Shown here piece after piece: positions 1 to 8,613 of a DNA stretch of 64,000 nucleotides. A program made the position numbers and the translations under genes. Positions within the stretch are counted from its first letter, which is position 1; each line of letters starts with the position of its first letter. This DNA comes from an uncultured Campylobacterales bacterium (GTDB lineage: Bacteria > Campylobacterota > Campylobacteria > Campylobacterales > Arcobacteraceae), in contig CANLWY010000007.1 of the NCBI GenBank assembly GCA_947494995.1, positions 1 to 64,000 of the forward strand, in the 5' to 3' direction. The notes beneath the pieces were generated by a model, which saw nothing but the letters and a program-made list of their open reading frames with translations, was not told the DNA's origin and ran no database searches.

Positions 1-12
1 TGAGTTTTTACT

Positions 13-64
13 AAAGCTTATCTTTATCAACTTCTTTAAGTTGCTAACGGTAAGCTTTTTTTTT
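13..64 (+). terminator. Rho-independent terminator of a gene left of the window
   Basis: An outer inverted repeat, AAAGCTTA (13-20) with TAAGCTTT (51-58), encloses an inner perfect 6-bp stem, CAACTT (28-33) with AAGTTG (38-43). A run of T follows to position 64. This is a good plus-strand intrinsic terminator. No coding sequence can be seen before it, so the gene it ends lies outside the window. Confidence 0.7.
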
Positions 65-94
65 AGCCTAGCTTTTTATTTATCTAGTTTGTTT

Positions 95-382
95 TTATTC
101 TTTCTCTTTTTTATACCCTTGTGTTATATAGTACTCTTTATCTTTTTGATTTAAGCATTTGTAGTCAATGATTATATATTTTTTTTGTACTCTTTTTTTT
201 ATCAATTTTAATTCACTATTTATATCTTCACAAGTTTCACTTGCTTCATCCAAGGCATTTTCTCTTGTGTCTGATGAACTTGAATATGTATTAAAACCAA
301 TTTGATGAGTTGTTTTACCTGAACATAAAGTAAAAGAAATAACAAGTGTTGAAATAGTAAGTATTTGTAAAAGTTTTTGTTT
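95..382 (-). pseudogene. Small lipoprotein-like ORF lacking a start codon
   Basis: The minus strand holds an open frame of about 95 codons. It begins with a hydrophobic signal-like stretch (LLQILTISTLVISFTLCSG), a lipobox-like Cys, and then a polar Lys/Glu-rich domain ending at a TAA (95-97). A stop codon lies at 383-385 immediately upstream, and no ATG, GTG or TTG precedes the signal sequence. The first in-frame TTG falls after it and would leave 51 residues. A TATAAT box (409-414) and an AAGGAG Shine-Dalgarno (392-397) are intact just upstream. Either the start was lost by an indel in the A-rich tract at about 380-390, or a rare codon such as ATA (362-364) is used. I do not recognise the family. 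The -1 residue of the lipobox is Leu, which is atypical. Confidence 0.45.
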
Positions 383-408
383 TTATTTTTTCTCCTTTTG
401 TATAATGG

Positions 409-414
409 ATTATA
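409..414 (-). promoter_or_regulatory. -10 element for the start-less lipoprotein ORF
   Basis: The minus strand reads TATAAT here, about 12 bases before an AAGGAG Shine-Dalgarno (392-397). This matches the sigma70 -10 boxes seen upstream of other genes in the window. The expected transcription start is near 402, which would give a very short leader. Confidence 0.45.
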
Positions 415-552
415 AAGGCAAAAAGTTTCTTTTTGGTGTTAAGATATTAATTTAATAAAAAAATGTTTTTTTGAATACTCTATGGAATTATATAGATAGT
501 TTATTTTAAATACAAGGCTATAGATATTAGATGATTGTAAGTTTTAAGAAAT

Positions 553-587
553 AAAAAAAGGCCAGTTGTAAAACAACTGACCTTTTT
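553..587 (-). terminator. rpsU terminator
   Basis: GGCCAGTTG (560-568) and CAACTGACC (574-582) form a 9-bp stem with a 5-base loop. The one apparent mismatch becomes a G-U pair in the minus-strand transcript. That transcript then runs into seven U residues (553-559). It sits about 20 bases after the rpsU stop codon. Confidence 0.85.
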
Positions 588-606
588 CTTGGTAGAAAAC
601 GAATTA

Positions 607-1669: not shown

Positions 1670-2653
1670 ATGAAAAGAAGAGAGTTCTTAAAGTCTTCAT
1701 CAGTTTTAACGCTGTATTTTAGTACACAAAATTTAATAGCTAGTGAAGAGAATAAGGGAACTTTTTTATCAAATCTTTTTGGTGATTTATTTGAATCTCC
1801 AAAAGAGAGAGTTGTTTTAAGAGATAGTAATGAAGATGTTTTAAAGGTTTTAAAACCCAAAGATATAATAGTTAAAAAAGTAGAAAATAAAACTTTTCCT
1901 AAAATTGAAGAAACTATTGTAGAAGAAGGTATGATTAAAGAAGATAAAACATTAGTAAATAATGAAAAAGAGATAAAATCTCACAAAGATGTATTTATAG
2001 ACAAAAAAAACATTGAAGAGTTTGTTTCTGTAAGAGAAAAACTAAAACTAGTACAAAATCATGTAGGTTATGGAAACTTTAATATAATCAGTTTTGACGA
2101 GATGTTAAAGGTTGCAAAATATTCAAATAAAATAGAATCATACACAAAAAAAGAGTTAGAGTTTTTAGAATCAATTTTTTACTATGATCCTAAATATCAT
2201 GGCTTTTATGGTAGAAAAGTATCAGATAAGATAACTCAGAAAATCAATAAAAATGAAGTATCAAAAATTCCTTATACTGGGCACTACCTTTTTAAAGGTG
2301 AACCAGAAAAAATATATAATAGAATGGTTGAAGACATTGGAGATTCATTAGTTTTAACTTCAGGGGTTAGAAGTATTGTTAAACAAACAAAACTATTTTT
2401 AGACAAAATTGACTCTGTTGATGGTAATATGTCTGTTGCTTCTAAATCATTGGCTCCTCCTGCATATACATATCATAGTATTGCTGATTTTGATGTTGGT
2501 AAAAAAGGTTTTGGCTATGATAACTTTACTTCTAGATTTGCTCTAACTGAAGAGTTTCAAGCTATGAGAAAATTAAAATATATAGATATGAGATATACAA
2601 TAAACAATAAGGATGGAGTAAGGTATGAACCTTGGCATGTTAAGATTATTTAA
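1670..2653 (+). CDS. Tat-exported VanY-type (M15) D,D/L,D-carboxypeptidase-like protein
   Basis: The N-terminus MKRREFLKSSS is a twin-arginine signal (RRxFLK). Residues about 25-120 are a long Lys/Glu-rich linker. The C-terminal third carries the M15 zinc peptidase pattern: SGVRS at about 231, a His followed by two Asp (YHSIADFD; H269, D273, D275), and ExWH (E320, H323) near the end. M15B enzymes remove the terminal D-Ala from peptidoglycan stem peptides. The gene overlaps the start of csd4, which encodes another stem-peptide carboxypeptidase, so a joint role in wall trimming is a reasonable inference. Tat export suggests the protein folds and binds its metal before export. Exact substrate specificity cannot be read from the sequence. 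Confidence 0.82.
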   Translation: MKRREFLKSSSVLTLYFSTQNLIASEENKGTFLSNLFGDLFESPKERVVLRDSNEDVLKVLKPKDIIVKKVENKTFPKIEETIVEEGMIKEDKTLVNNEKEIKSHKDVFIDKKNIEEFVSVREKLKLVQNHVGYGNFNIISFDEMLKVAKYSNKIESYTKKELEFLESIFYYDPKYHGFYGRKVSDKITQKINKNEVSKIPYTGHYLFKGEPEKIYNRMVEDIGDSLVLTSGVRSIVKQTKLFLDKIDSVDGNMSVASKSLAPPAYTYHSIADFDVGKKGFGYDNFTSRFALTEEFQAMRKLKYIDMRYTINNKDGVRYEPWHVKII

Positions 2654-4007
2654 ATTATTATTGGTTTCACTTTTTATACAAAATCTTTTTGCTTCTACCC
2701 AAAGTTTTGAATTTGATTTTATTAAAAAAGGTGTTCAGGATGATAACACTCTTTTGATAGTTGGTGGTATTCAAGGTGATGAACCTGGAGCTTTTATGGC
2801 TGCTTCACTTATTACTACACATTATGAAATAACAAAAGGTTCAGTTTGGGTTGTTCCTAATTTAAATTTCTATTCGATTATAAAACGTTCTCGTGGTCCT
2901 TTTGGAGATATGAATAGAAAGTTTGCTGATTTAGCAGAAAATGATCCTGATTATAACTCTATTCAGAGAATAAAAAAATATATAAAAGCTGATGAAGTGA
3001 AAGTGGTATTGAATTTACATGATGGTAGTGGTTTTTATAGAGAAAAACATGAAAACTGGTCTTTTTCTCCTGATAGATGGGGACAAAGTACTATTATTGA
3101 CCAAGCAAATTTAGATATTGAATATTATGGAAATCTTGAAGAGATATCAACAAAAGTTTGTGAACATGTAAACAAGTATTTATTAAGAGACAGAGACTAT
3201 TACAGTGTAAAAAATACTCATACAAGAATGGGTGATAAAGAGATGGAAAAGACTCTTACTTATTTTGCAATAAATAGTGGAAAAGCAGCTTTTGGAAACG
3301 AAGCTAGTAAAGTTTTGCCTCTACATGAAAGAACGTATTATCATTTAGTCGCACTTGAAAAGTACATGCAAATTATGGGAATAGAGTTTAAAAGAAAGTT
3401 TGAACTTAATTCTTTAAGTGTTAAAAATGTAATTGACAATGATATTTATATCTCTTTTTATGATGAAAAGATACAGCTTCCTCTTAGTCAGATAAGAAAT
3501 ATTCTGAAATACTTTCCTGTAAAAAAAGATGGGACTTTAGAGTTTACTCCATCAAATCCTTTAATGACTATTATCAAAAAAGATGGAACTTTTATGATTC
3601 ATTATGGAAATAGAAAGTTAGCAAATTTAAAACCAGACTATTTAGATATGGAAGAGACTACAAAAAATATTATAATGAATATTGATGGTAAGCAAAAAAG
3701 CATTAGATTAGGTTCTATTGTTGATGTTGATTCAAGTTTTGAAATAAAGCCATTAGAAGAGTATAGGGTAAATGTTATAGGTTTTGTGCAAAAAGGTAAA
3801 AGAGATGAAGCCGGAATTACAATAAAAAGAGAAGGTATTCAAAAAAGATTCTCTGTTGATAAGAATGGCTTTTTGTTTAGAATAGAGTTTTACAAAGATA
3901 AAAAATTTGCAGGAATGATTTTAGTAAATTTTGATAAAACAAGATCAATTGAAGATAATCTTTCTCTTGCTTCAAAAAAAGCTAAAAGTGTTACAAGCTC
4001 TTTGTAA
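2625..4007 (+). CDS. csd4: Csd4/Pgp1-like peptidoglycan D,L-carboxypeptidase (M14)
   Basis: This is a homologue of H. pylori Csd4 and C. jejuni Pgp1, which trim tripeptide stems to dipeptides and are needed for helical cell shape. A signal peptide (LLLVSLFIQNLFAS) is followed by GGIQGDEPG, supplying the unusual Gln/Glu zinc ligands (Q50, E53). NLHDGSGFYR supplies the His ligand (H133). The length of 460 residues fits the family (about 440). The ATG at 2625 is preceded by GGAG, but an alternative ATG at 2637 would give a tighter signal peptide. It overlaps the upstream VanY-like gene by 29 bases. Its last codons lie in a terminator hairpin. Confidence 0.93.
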   Translation: MNLGMLRLFKLLLVSLFIQNLFASTQSFEFDFIKKGVQDDNTLLIVGGIQGDEPGAFMAASLITTHYEITKGSVWVVPNLNFYSIIKRSRGPFGDMNRKFADLAENDPDYNSIQRIKKYIKADEVKVVLNLHDGSGFYREKHENWSFSPDRWGQSTIIDQANLDIEYYGNLEEISTKVCEHVNKYLLRDRDYYSVKNTHTRMGDKEMEKTLTYFAINSGKAAFGNEASKVLPLHERTYYHLVALEKYMQIMGIEFKRKFELNSLSVKNVIDNDIYISFYDEKIQLPLSQIRNILKYFPVKKDGTLEFTPSNPLMTIIKKDGTFMIHYGNRKLANLKPDYLDMEETTKNIIMNIDGKQKSIRLGSIVDVDSSFEIKPLEEYRVNVIGFVQKGKRDEAGITIKREGIQKRFSVDKNGFLFRIEFYKDKKFAGMILVNFDKTRSIEDNLSLASKKAKSVTSSL

Positions 4008-4014
4008 CACTTTT
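3984..4014. terminator. Bidirectional terminator hairpin embedding stop codons
   Basis: AAAAGTGTTACAA and TTGTAACACTTTT are perfect 13-base arms around a GCTCT loop. The csd4 stop (4005-4007) lies inside the right arm. The stop of the convergent minus-strand gene (4013-4015) touches the end of the same arm. A/T tracts on both sides would let it work in both directions. Confidence 0.8.
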
Positions 4015-4270
4015 AATCAACAAGTTCTTGTTTGATTCTCTCTTGATTTAATTTTTTACAAGCTGATTTATATAATTCTTCAACTCTTTCTTCTTCATCA
4101 TGAATAAGTTCTGCAATTTCTTTAATCTCTTTTTTCTCTTCATATGCGATAAAAACTTTTAACTCTTTTTTTGTAAATTTTCTTTTTAGTACTTCTTTTA
4201 ATTCTTTTTCTTCTTTTAATGTACCAACTAATTTATCAATATGTGAAAGTACTGATTCTCTTAAATCCAT
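4013..4270 (-). CDS. Small charged helical protein of unknown function
   Basis: This 85-residue protein is almost entirely Lys/Glu-rich helix. The central part (KKELKVFIAYEEKKEIKEIA) followed by a second helix resembles the helix-turn-helix spacing of sigma-factor region 4 proteins, which is only a visual impression. There is no signal peptide or membrane segment. It lies 6 bases after surE in the dnaE-surE operon and probably shares that transcript. I do not recognise a named family. Confidence 0.65.
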   Translation of the reverse strand: MDLRESVLSHIDKLVGTLKEEKELKEVLKRKFTKKELKVFIAYEEKKEIKEIAELIHDEEERVEELYKSACKKLNQERIKQELVD

Positions 4271-4276
4271 AATTAA

Positions 4277-5071
4277 TTATTCTCCTTCTTTTATCCAAGT
4301 GTTTAATTTGTCAATATCATCATATGATGTTAAGTCCAACATTATAGGTGTAATTGACACATAGTTTGCTTTAATTGCTTCAAAATCACAATTTTTATCT
4401 TCACTTTCTTGCCAAATTAAAGGATGAAGACCTATCCAATAAAACTCTTCTCCTCTTGGATTGTGATGTCTATGGGTATCATTTCCATACTCTCTGTAAC
4501 CAGCTTTTGTAACTTTTATTCCTTTACACTCTTCAATTTGAATAGGAGGAATATTTACATTTAAAAATTTTCTTTTAGAAAGAGGAAATTCATTATCTAA
4601 AATTTTCTTTGCAAGATCTACAATTGTTTTTTTTGCTAAGGCAAAATCCCAAGCATTTTTTATATCATGGCAGTTGTCTTTGCAAACTTGTGAAATAGCG
4701 ATAGCTGGAATCCCATGTAACACTGCTTCCATAGCACCAGCTGCTGTTCCACTGTAAGTAAGGTCTTCTCCCATATTTGCACCAATATTGATACCACTAA
4801 TAACTAAATCAGGTTTATATCCTTCTTTAAATAGATTATTTAAAGAGATAAAAATACAATCAGTAGGGGTACCATCATCAATCTTATAGTAATCATCATT
4901 TACACTATCAAGTCTTAGTGGCTTATCTAGGGTTAAACTATGTCCACAAGCAGATTTATTTCTAGCAGGAGCAACTACAATTATCTTTGCTATTGGCTTT
5001 AAAGCATCAATTAGAACTTTTAATCCAATTGCATCAAAACCATCATCATTTGTTAGTAAGATTTGTTTCAT
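4277..5071 (-). CDS. surE: 5'/3'-nucleotidase SurE
   Basis: SurE is a metal-dependent nucleoside monophosphate phosphatase linked to stress survival. The N-terminus LLTNDDGFDAIG carries the paired Asp metal ligands, followed by SACGHSLT and GTPTDCIF, then SGINIGANMGEDLTYSGTA, all typical of the family. The 264-residue length is normal. Its ATG overlaps the dnaE stop by 4 bases (ATGA), so it is translationally coupled to the DNA polymerase gene. Confidence 0.96.
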   Translation of the reverse strand: MKQILLTNDDGFDAIGLKVLIDALKPIAKIIVVAPARNKSACGHSLTLDKPLRLDSVNDDYYKIDDGTPTDCIFISLNNLFKEGYKPDLVISGINIGANMGEDLTYSGTAAGAMEAVLHGIPAIAISQVCKDNCHDIKNAWDFALAKKTIVDLAKKILDNEFPLSKRKFLNVNIPPIQIEECKGIKVTKAGYREYGNDTHRHHNPRGEEFYWIGLHPLIWQESEDKNCDFEAIKANYVSITPIMLDLTSYDDIDKLNTWIKEGE

Positions 5072-8000
5072 ACTACTACAAAAGCTCCTTCAATCTGTTT
5101 TATAAGTTGTTCAACATTTGAAGTTACTCTATATCCAGTTTCAAGTTCTATATCAGCTAGTTTTGTTTTTACAATAACTTTTAGTGCACGTTTACCTTGG
5201 TTATTTGCAACTATCTCTTGAAGCTTATAGATTGTTTCATTTGTTTCTACATAGGGAATAGCAATTGTTAAAGGAGGCTCTTCTTTTTCAACATGTTTTG
5301 TTCTAACTTTCTCTTTTTGCGCTTCTTTTAAAGTCTCGATTTTAAGAATATTCATTCTTGTAAAATCACCATCTCTTGTAACTTTTACTTTAAAAGCAAT
5401 AGGTTCATCTAAATCAAAATCAGTTTCAAGCTCTTTTAGTCTATTTTCAAAAAGCATAAGTTCAATATTTCCATGAAGGTCAAGGATATTTGCTATTCCA
5501 AACTTATTACCTTTTTTAGAAATTTTTTCAGTAATTTCTTCAATCTTTCCTACAATAATCGCTTGAGAACCATCGGCAACTTCATCAAGTTCAGAACTTA
5601 GAGTATAGTTGATTTTTTCAAGTTGCTCTCTATATGAATCAAGAGGGTGTCCAGAAACATAAAAACCTAAAGAAGCTTTTTCGAATTCTAAAATCTCTTT
5701 AGCATCAAACTCTGGTAAATCTTCAAGTTCAATTTCTATTCTAGTTAATTCATCACTATCTCCAAATAAAGAACCAGTAGCCATTTTCTTTGCTTTTGCA
5801 GCATTTCCAACGGCTTCACCAATAAGTTCAATTTGTTCTAATATAGCACGTCTACTATATCCAAAAGAAGTAAGGGCTCCAGATTTTGCTAGGGACTCAA
5901 TAACTCTTTTATTTACTTTACTTCCATCAATTCTAGAAATAAAATCAGATAAGTTCTCAAACTCTCCATTTTCATCTCTTTCTGCAATAATAGAATTAAT
6001 AGCAACATCTCCTGCACCTTTAATGGCACCCATACCGAACATTACTGTCTCTTTTCCATCAATCTGCGTTGCAGAGAATACTGAGTATGATTTATTTATA
6101 TCAGGTGGGAAAAGGTCAATATCTAGTCTTTTTACTTCATCCACATATCTTACAACTTTATCAGTATTATCTTTTTCAAGTGTAAGAAGGGCTGCCATAA
6201 ACTCTGTTGGGTAGTAGCATTTTAAGTATGAAGTATAAAATGTAACAAGTGCATAGGCTGCTGAGTGAGATTTGTTAAATCCATATCCTGCGAATTTTAC
6301 AATAAGGTCGAAAAGTTCTTCACAGTGTTCTTTGTTATAACCTTTTTTAACTCCACCTTCAGCAAACTCACCTTTAAGTCTATCCATCTCTTCAACAATT
6401 TTCTTACCCATAGCCCGTCTAACTAAGTCAGCTCCTCCAAGTGAGAAGCCACCAATAGTCTGTACAATCTGCATAACTTGCTCTTGGTAAACAATAACCC
6501 CATAGGTTGTTTCAAGGATTGGTCTTAATGGTGCATCAAATTCATCATAGAAGTAATTGATCTCTGCTCGTCCATGTTTTCTATCAATAAAGTCATCAAG
6601 CATCCCTGACTCCATAGGCCCTGGTCTGTATAGTGCAAGAACGGCTACTGTATCCTCAAAGTTTGATGGTTTTAATCTTTTACATAAATCTTGCATACCT
6701 GCAGATTCTATCTGGAATAGTCCAATTGTATTTCCTGTTTGGATTAGGTCATATACACCTTTGTCATTTACATCAGTTTTAATAAAGTCAATTCTTTTAC
6801 CATGTCTTTTTTCAACAAGTTTATTTGCTTCTTCAATAACTGTTAGGGTTTTAAGTCCAAGGAAGTCAAATTTAATTAAGTCAACATCTTCTACATATTT
6901 TCCATTATACTGGGTTGCTAGTGTATCAAGTCCCGAAGGTTTAAAAAGTGGTGTTTTATTCCATAAAGGTTCATTGGAGATTACAACCCCTGCTGCGTGG
7001 GTACCAGCATTTCTATTTAGACCTTCTAATGCTAAAGCAAATTCCCAAACACGGGCTGCTTGTGGATCAGAATCACAAAGCTCTTTTATTTTTGGTTCTT
7101 TTGCATAAGAGTCAGTTAGATTTATTCCTAATTCATCAGGGATTAGTTTTGCCATAGCGTCTGCTTTTGAGTAAGGCATATCTAATACTCTTGCTACATC
7201 TCTAATAACTCCTTTTGCTAAAAGTTTACCAAAGGTAATAATTTGAGCAACATTGGCACGACCATATTGTTCAACAACATAGTCAATAATTTCACCCCTT
7301 CTTGATTGACAGAAGTCCATATCGATATCGGGCATTGATACCCTCTCTGGATTTAGAAATCTCTCAAAAAGTAAGCCATAAGGCATAGGATCAATATCGG
7401 TAATAAAAAGTGAATATGCAACAAGTGAACCAGCTGCTGAACCCCGTCCTGGACCAACAGGTATTTTCATCTGTTTTGCAACAATTACGAAATCCCAAAC
7501 AATAAGCATATATCCTGGGAATTTCATATTATTAATAATATCAATTTCTACTTGTAGTCTATCTCTATACTCTTGATGCTTCTCTTCTGGAACAATTTCT
7601 AATCTTATTTCCAGACCTTTCCAACACTCGTAAATAAATAGAGCCTTATCATTTTCTAATGAATACTCTTCATCAGGAAAAGGAATAGCTTGATTTTGTT
7701 CTATTAATTTATCTCGTGTAAATTTAAAGTTTGGAGGAGTTGGGTTTCCTAGTTTAATCTCTAAATTACACTTATCTGCAATCTCTTGTGTTGCATGAAT
7801 AGCTTCAGGAATATCTGCATAAAGCTTAGCAATTTGTTCGGGTGTTTTTAAATAAAACTCGTGAACTGAGTGTCTTAATCTATTAGGGTCATCATAAAGT
7901 TTATTCATTGCAATACACATAAAAGCTTCATGTGCATCAGCATCTTTTTGATTTAGATAGTGTGTATCATTTGTTGCAACTAGTTTAATCCCTGTTTCAT

Positions 8001-8613
8001 GAGCAATCCTTAATATTTGGTCATCAACAAAATGTTGGTCACCAATTCCATGTCTCATAATCTCTAGATAGAAATCATCTCCAAAAATTTCTTGATACTC
8101 TAAGGCTATCTCTTTTGCTCTATCATAACCTAAAGCACCATTTTTAACGTTTCTTTGGTTTTGTAAGTTTAGGTGCCAGTTTATTTCACCTTGTAAACAA
8201 GCAGCAGAACATACAAGTCCTTCTGAGTTTTCACGTAAAAGTTTTTTGTTTATTCTTGGGTAGTAATAAAAACCATGCATATAAGCTTGTGAACTTAAGT
8301 ACATAAGGTTTTTATATCCTGTTTGATTTTTTGCATAAAGACATAAGTGAAATCTTTGTCTAGTTGTTTTATCATCTATTTCATCAGAGTTATGAATATA
8401 AGCTTCCATTCCAATGATAGGTTTTATATCTTGTGCTCTCATCGCATTGTAAAAGTCTATGGCACCAAACATATTCCCATGATCTGTCATGGCAACAGAG
8501 GTCATTCCCATCTCTTTAACTTTTTTTGCTAAGGGTTTAATCTTATTAGCACCATCAAGTAACGAATATTCTGTATGTAAATGTAAATGTGTAAATTGTG
8601 GAGTTTCTGACAT
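5068..8613 (-). CDS. dnaE: DNA polymerase III alpha subunit
   Basis: This is the replicative polymerase catalytic subunit, 1181 residues, DnaE1-like. An N-terminal PHP domain begins HLHLHTEYSLLDGANKI (about residues 9-25) with TDHGN at 43-47. The polymerase domain has GPGRGSAAGS (387-396) and the catalytic PDIDMDF (about 428-434). A C-terminal OB-fold region (SQAIIVGKIEEITEKISKKG) follows the tandem HhH region. The gene has its own TATAAT box at 8641-8646 and is followed by overlapping surE. Several plus-strand open frames inside it are shadows. Confidence 0.98.
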   Translation of the reverse strand: MSETPQFTHLHLHTEYSLLDGANKIKPLAKKVKEMGMTSVAMTDHGNMFGAIDFYNAMRAQDIKPIIGMEAYIHNSDEIDDKTTRQRFHLCLYAKNQTGYKNLMYLSSQAYMHGFYYYPRINKKLLRENSEGLVCSAACLQGEINWHLNLQNQRNVKNGALGYDRAKEIALEYQEIFGDDFYLEIMRHGIGDQHFVDDQILRIAHETGIKLVATNDTHYLNQKDADAHEAFMCIAMNKLYDDPNRLRHSVHEFYLKTPEQIAKLYADIPEAIHATQEIADKCNLEIKLGNPTPPNFKFTRDKLIEQNQAIPFPDEEYSLENDKALFIYECWKGLEIRLEIVPEEKHQEYRDRLQVEIDIINNMKFPGYMLIVWDFVIVAKQMKIPVGPGRGSAAGSLVAYSLFITDIDPMPYGLLFERFLNPERVSMPDIDMDFCQSRRGEIIDYVVEQYGRANVAQIITFGKLLAKGVIRDVARVLDMPYSKADAMAKLIPDELGINLTDSYAKEPKIKELCDSDPQAARVWEFALALEGLNRNAGTHAAGVVISNEPLWNKTPLFKPSGLDTLATQYNGKYVEDVDLIKFDFLGLKTLTVIEEANKLVEKRHGKRIDFIKTDVNDKGVYDLIQTGNTIGLFQIESAGMQDLCKRLKPSNFEDTVAVLALYRPGPMESGMLDDFIDRKHGRAEINYFYDEFDAPLRPILETTYGVIVYQEQVMQIVQTIGGFSLGGADLVRRAMGKKIVEEMDRLKGEFAEGGVKKGYNKEHCEELFDLIVKFAGYGFNKSHSAAYALVTFYTSYLKCYYPTEFMAALLTLEKDNTDKVVRYVDEVKRLDIDLFPPDINKSYSVFSATQIDGKETVMFGMGAIKGAGDVAINSIIAERDENGEFENLSDFISRIDGSKVNKRVIESLAKSGALTSFGYSRRAILEQIELIGEAVGNAAKAKKMATGSLFGDSDELTRIEIELEDLPEFDAKEILEFEKASLGFYVSGHPLDSYREQLEKINYTLSSELDEVADGSQAIIVGKIEEITEKISKKGNKFGIANILDLHGNIELMLFENRLKELETDFDLDEPIAFKVKVTRDGDFTRMNILKIETLKEAQKEKVRTKHVEKEEPPLTIAIPYVETNETIYKLQEIVANNQGKRALKVIVKTKLADIELETGYRVTSNVEQLIKQIEGAFVVV

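Follow-up and report, generated by a model that had tools for sequence, protein, structure and literature searches.

In ordinary bacterial pseudogenes of the start-loss kind, the promoter region and the body are retained and initiation is gone. Also described are non-AUG initiation, which the available text of one study documents in bacteria (PMC13009471), and the rescue of an interrupted gene by transcriptional slippage, as reported in the available part of another (PMC4256274). Here we analyzed a 64,000-nucleotide stretch of DNA (hereafter the window), which comprises bases 1-64000 of contig C7 in a 3.17-Mb genome of 31 contigs and starts at the first base of that contig, and which carries close to this edge a lipoprotein-like gene with expression signals and no start codon. 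Compared to ordinary start-loss pseudogenes there is nothing special about this gene, except that an intact copy in the same genome and a promoter region common to both copies make the lesion unusually clear. Among the titles listed by a literature search, none names either the lipoprotein gene or the promoter box described below.

The lipoprotein-like gene and its missing start codon

Reading the minus strand 5' to 3' revealed, in order, a 20-nt box (439-420), a -10-like TATAAT box (414-409), an AAGGAG ribosome-binding site (397-392), an in-frame TAA (385-383) immediately 5' of the gene body, and then the body itself (382-95), which consists of 95 sense codons (382-98) followed by a TAA (97-95). 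Apart from the box, which it does not mention, all of these elements, including the 95 uninterrupted codons, proved to be correctly placed in the original prediction. Other than the TAA at 385-383 no other stop occurs in the lipoprotein frame. The box, ACACCAAAAAGAAACTTTTT, is one of 4 exact copies in the genome and overlaps the expected place of a -35 element. Our call of a putative promoter here rests on this shared box and on the layout, without support from a sigma-70 consensus scan of positions 1-1000 (-35 match required), in which 414-409 was not among the promoters and the 6 promoter matches represented no excess over the 5.2 expected in shuffles.

The body begins with a signal-sequence-like stretch that leads to a lipobox-like TLCS, whose cysteine is codon 20, and continues into a mature part with two more conserved cysteines. 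Start codon aside, KQKLLQILTISTLVISFTLC possesses the features of a lipoprotein as assessed by eye, namely a basic N-terminus, a hydrophobic stretch and a lipobox cysteine near residue 20. Because 95 open codons have a chance of ~6e-5 in one fixed frame at the base composition of the stretch, and because an intact homologue exists (see next section), the frame is not a chance ORF.

A start-codon search from the promoter to the signal sequence confirmed that no ATG, GTG or TTG is present there. The nearest canonical starts upstream, TTG 515-513 and TTG 421-419, run into stops after 4 and 3 codons, respectively, and the first in-frame start within the body is TTG 253-251, which lies past the lipobox. 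The position at which a start codon would be expected reads ATA (386-384, minus strand); its distance from the box start, 53 nt, lies within the 53-58 nt seen for the other box genes. Across five other exact-box genes from three genomes, all of which use ATG, the distance from box start to start codon is 58, 53, 55, 53 and 53 nt. This ATA does not share the reading frame of the lipoprotein body, which fits the small indel that had been proposed, and the start codon and the reading frame are both disturbed at one single place.

Evaluating the surroundings further, we found a terminator-like hairpin 3' of rpsU (553-589, minus strand; hairpin scan), between rpsU and the lipoprotein gene. On the other side, the contig break falls at an rRNA operon convergent with the lipoprotein gene, with window positions 1-70 (plus strand) representing the 3' end of the operon as a terminator-like hairpin plus T run (folding z of -3.3 forward and -2.4 reverse). 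These bases equal the first 70 bases of contig C16, reversed, and C16 continues from them into 5S rRNA (Rfam 5S) and then into what is presumably 23S rRNA. The same bases recur at or near the ends of C4, C13 and C16, with a shared length of 70-81 bases. While rpsU adjoins moaC in 16/16 genus genomes, no counterpart of the window lipoprotein was found behind rpsU in the first 300 bases viewed in each genus genome (111 for G006). The gene content behind rpsU differs among genus members (window 95-600; L010-L024), with longer stretches viewed as ORFs for seven forward-oriented loci, our own included.

An intact paralogue and a distant homologue

Searches within the same genome revealed an intact paralogue on contig C5 (C5:122488-122757, which is L005:4489-4761) that encodes 90 aa with a start codon, a signal-like sequence and a lipobox. 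The window copy matches this paralogue at E 1.4e-17 with 43/86 aligned residues identical, and the two coding sequences show a dN of 0.41 and a dS of 0.90 (NG86), the latter near saturation, with codon-position differences of 35/18/39. DNA similarity spans the promoter region as well as the gene (window 189-450 against C5:122419-122687; 70%, E 7.5e-22), and the copies have in common the box, the AAAAGGA leader, and the EASETCED and YKCL stretches. They differ in that the paralogue possesses a standard start codon at the very position where the window copy has none, and in that the paralogue lies with a two-component system and secreted-looking proteins whereas the window copy lies between the rRNA operon end and rpsU. 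The original prediction had named a homologue that places the true start elsewhere, or a frame not conserved in relatives, as evidence that would count against it; the paralogue does not move the start, and the frame is kept in the paralogue as well as in a single distant homologue.

The latter comes from G315, a genome of another family of the order (L026:1489-1836, 115 aa; E 5e-11 in the profile search), and aligns with the window body such that the cysteine at codon 20 corresponds to a cysteine in both relatives. It shares with the window copy the lipobox cysteine, QIGNNLY, both mature cysteines and the C-terminal EY, and it differs in having a start codon and in having no box within 189 bases upstream. 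Its neighbours are ORFs that we take to be integrase-like and replication-protein-like (L026:1-3267), hinting that this lipoprotein family may travel on mobile elements.

A two-sequence profile (window copy plus paralogue) matched 14 of 398 order genomes when 12 candidates were scored in each of many of these genomes. The matches were the own genome, G315 and a further 12 with weak scores (E 6e-5 to 5e-3), G083 among them. The paralogue as query matched 2 of 104 family genomes, the own genome and G083, and the latter was rejected as a homologue after inspection of the DNA, with the similarity being mostly signal sequence. The window protein (P0001) had no match in 15 other genomes of the genus, and thereby occurred in its own genome only (1/16), where two more weak matches were seen (E 0.077 and 0.28). 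Similarly, tblastn of P0001 against phages and plasmids gave no match at E 1, and the peptide pattern fitted 35 stretches in viral contigs and 43 in genome_contigs, with 0 confirmed as homologues in either set. Without a phage or plasmid match or a confirmed viral-contig match, a phage or plasmid origin of the window gene was dropped. Family searches with P0001 gave a best Pfam E of 0.046 (below cut-off) and nothing in NCBIfam or PHROGs, and the paralogue and G315 homologue had no Pfam or NCBIfam match above cut-off and a best PHROGs E of 0.018. EexN (NF033894) matched the paralogue at E 0.0038, spanning the signal stretch and below cut-off. A PDB profile search gave a best E of 0.11, and a single-sequence structure model of P0001 (mean pLDDT 42) was set aside.

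Probable inactivation of the duplicate and alternative explanations

The explanation that we rank first, and hold with considerable if incomplete confidence, is that the window gene arose by duplication of a regulated lipoprotein gene, was moved to a new place and was inactivated recently. Under this explanation, window 95-439 would descend from a gene for a small secreted lipoprotein within a regulon acting via the box at 439-420, the regulator of which would most likely be the two-component system at the paralogue locus on C5. The duplicate would have retained the box, the -10, the ribosome site and the reading frame, and a small change at the start site, presumably in the cell and not in the assembly alone, would have removed the start codon and put the start triplet in a different frame from the body. 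Transcription from the promoter would probably continue, and lipoprotein would be made hardly or not at all. With an intact paralogue, a common promoter region and leader, and a start lost exactly where one is expected, the earlier suggestion of a freshly broken gene is supported.

To gauge the age of the loss, we simulated how often the frame stays free of stops under a simple substitution model (86 aligned codons, base frequencies chosen by us), which gave probabilities of 0.41, 0.16, 0.03 and 0.002 if 1/10, 1/4, 1/2 or all of the divergence had been neutral on the window copy. Because these probabilities are low under longer neutral divergence, the start loss looks recent relative to the divergence of the two copies, or else is only apparent. 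Several observations weigh against this first-ranked explanation: the lesion is seen in one assembly only, with a contig end 383 bases away, the gene has no match in the 15 other genus genomes, only half of the aligned residues are identical to the paralogue, dS is close to saturation, the consensus scan did not return this promoter, and bacteria are documented to use non-AUG initiation (PMC13009471). By itself the window copy would be one more broken duplicate, and an ordinary one. It would nonetheless offer a clean example of a gene that, shortly after start-codon loss, still has its expression signals, and gene finders would miss it or mis-start it.

Ranked second, and unlikely, is an error of sequencing or assembly in the A-rich stretch where the start should be, with the gene being intact in the cell. 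Such an error would be in keeping with the position of the start site, both near the contig end, where the assembly is broken at an rRNA operon, and within a run of short A tracts, as well as with the absence of stops from the remaining frame. However, the sequence common with the rRNA-end repeat extends over only ~70-81 bases, a one-base miscall of tract length alone would not yield a start codon, and the rest of the window looks clean. The last point comes from a comparison with 94 ORFs of at least 100 aa in 100 kb of the relative G012, of which 48 had a window match at 60% identity or more (E up to 1e-20), and 44 of these 48 were covered over at least 90% of their length in one frame with no stop. 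The four exceptions were an antisense shadow (over a gene we assume to be mreB-like), an upstream-extended start (in a presumably topA-like gene), one ORF cut by the window end and one stop-free at 73% coverage; on inspection, neither of the first two proved to be a broken gene.

We consider it quite improbable that the gene is expressed at a low, throttled level from AUA 386-384, with slippage of the ribosome or of RNA polymerase in the A tracts restoring the lipoprotein frame, and give equally little credence to the corollary that the duplicate is still used, giving very small amounts of lipoprotein, and these only under strong activation of the promoter by the two-component system. The AUA does sit exactly at the expected start position behind a strong ribosome site, and reporter work in S. 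aureus, in the available text, describes non-canonical starts with an extended Shine-Dalgarno reaching ~10% of AUG expression and one AUA start reaching up to 30% (PMC13009471). A non-AUG start is thus possible in principle, but a frame change would still be required at the window copy, such that two unusual events have to coincide, and the tracts are short and the five other exact-box genes use ATG.

Less credible still is that the lipoprotein gene is phase-variable via A-tract slippage, as had also been proposed on the basis of the A-rich start site, where tracts of 6, 5 and 5 are indeed present. This proposal was not borne out, as in none of the frames does an upstream ATG, GTG or TTG read into the A tracts: frames 1 and 2, although open from 441 and 449 onward across the tracts, contain no such codon ahead of them, frame 0 is stopped, and both upstream TTGs are closed by stops. 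With no upstream start within reach, altering the number of A residues cannot by itself put a start codon in place. For a phase switch, tracts of 5-6 are short, and the three other box genes of the genome have no longer tract at that place. Lastly, initiation at the internal TTG 253-251, despite the open frame that follows, is hardly tenable, as the resulting 52-residue cytoplasmic protein would have neither signal sequence nor lipobox and would begin in the middle of the conserved part.

The promoter box and its putative regulon

The 20-nt box, ACACCAAAAAGAAACT-N-TTT, is found in the genome as the 4 exact copies mentioned above, compared to 0 for a reversed-pattern control, with 1 copy in the window and 3 on C5 within one 10-kb locus. 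Two own-genome sites with two mismatches (C6 and C13), which do not precede genes with this layout, were excluded from this count. The C5 boxes lie behind a response regulator (Response_reg + Trans_reg_C) and a 7TMR-DISM histidine kinase and precede the intact lipoprotein, a 114-aa protein and a 42-aa protein, and the AAAAGGA ribosome-site sequence is common to the window copy and the three other box genes. A genome-wide BLAST with window 1-600 as query additionally revealed that the promoter region at 380-461 matches that of a neighbouring C5 gene (76%, E 7.5e-8), which encodes a protein unlike the lipoprotein.

Among 104 family genomes, the exact box occurred in 3 (G000, G091 and G095), and the 150-aa operon protein of the C5 locus occurred in the same 3. 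In G091 and G095 the box is flanked directly by the kinase on one side and, on the other, by the operon that starts with this protein. The locus itself (L005, G000:C5:118000-128000, at 2272-8607; also L073 and L074) is likewise present in 3/104 family genomes and consists of an OmpR-type response regulator, the 7TMR-DISM kinase, the box, four proteins and an RND efflux adaptor, in that order, with the four proteins being secreted-looking, without names and 123-151 aa long, and two of them fitting one profile. Sites with one mismatch were seen in 8/104 family genomes, with a single, apparently coding context common to six of them and two lying elsewhere; they are taken as chance, with the reversed-box control giving 3 one-mismatch matches in the same 104 genomes. 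In genome_contigs the exact box was found in five records, one being Arcobacter sp. UBA7394 and the other four being Clostridia (twice), a member of the Flavobacteriia and an uncultured proteobacterium, and these four copies in unrelated bacteria are presumed to be chance.

From the neighbourhood and the co-occurrence in 3/104 genomes, we infer with good reason that the box genes are controlled by the C5 response regulator. The box, which accompanies the same operon in two genera, is a more useful by-product of this analysis than the window copy itself. It would mark a small regulon whose secreted-looking proteins are without names, and would predict where a specific OmpR-type response regulator binds in the Arcobacter group. 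Within the C5 locus, two 42-aa ORFs (L005:5373-5501 and L005:7208-7336) each have a hydrophobic start and resemble one another by eye, with SEN..W.QI..L at the end, and the second of these (L005:7208-7336) carries its own box.
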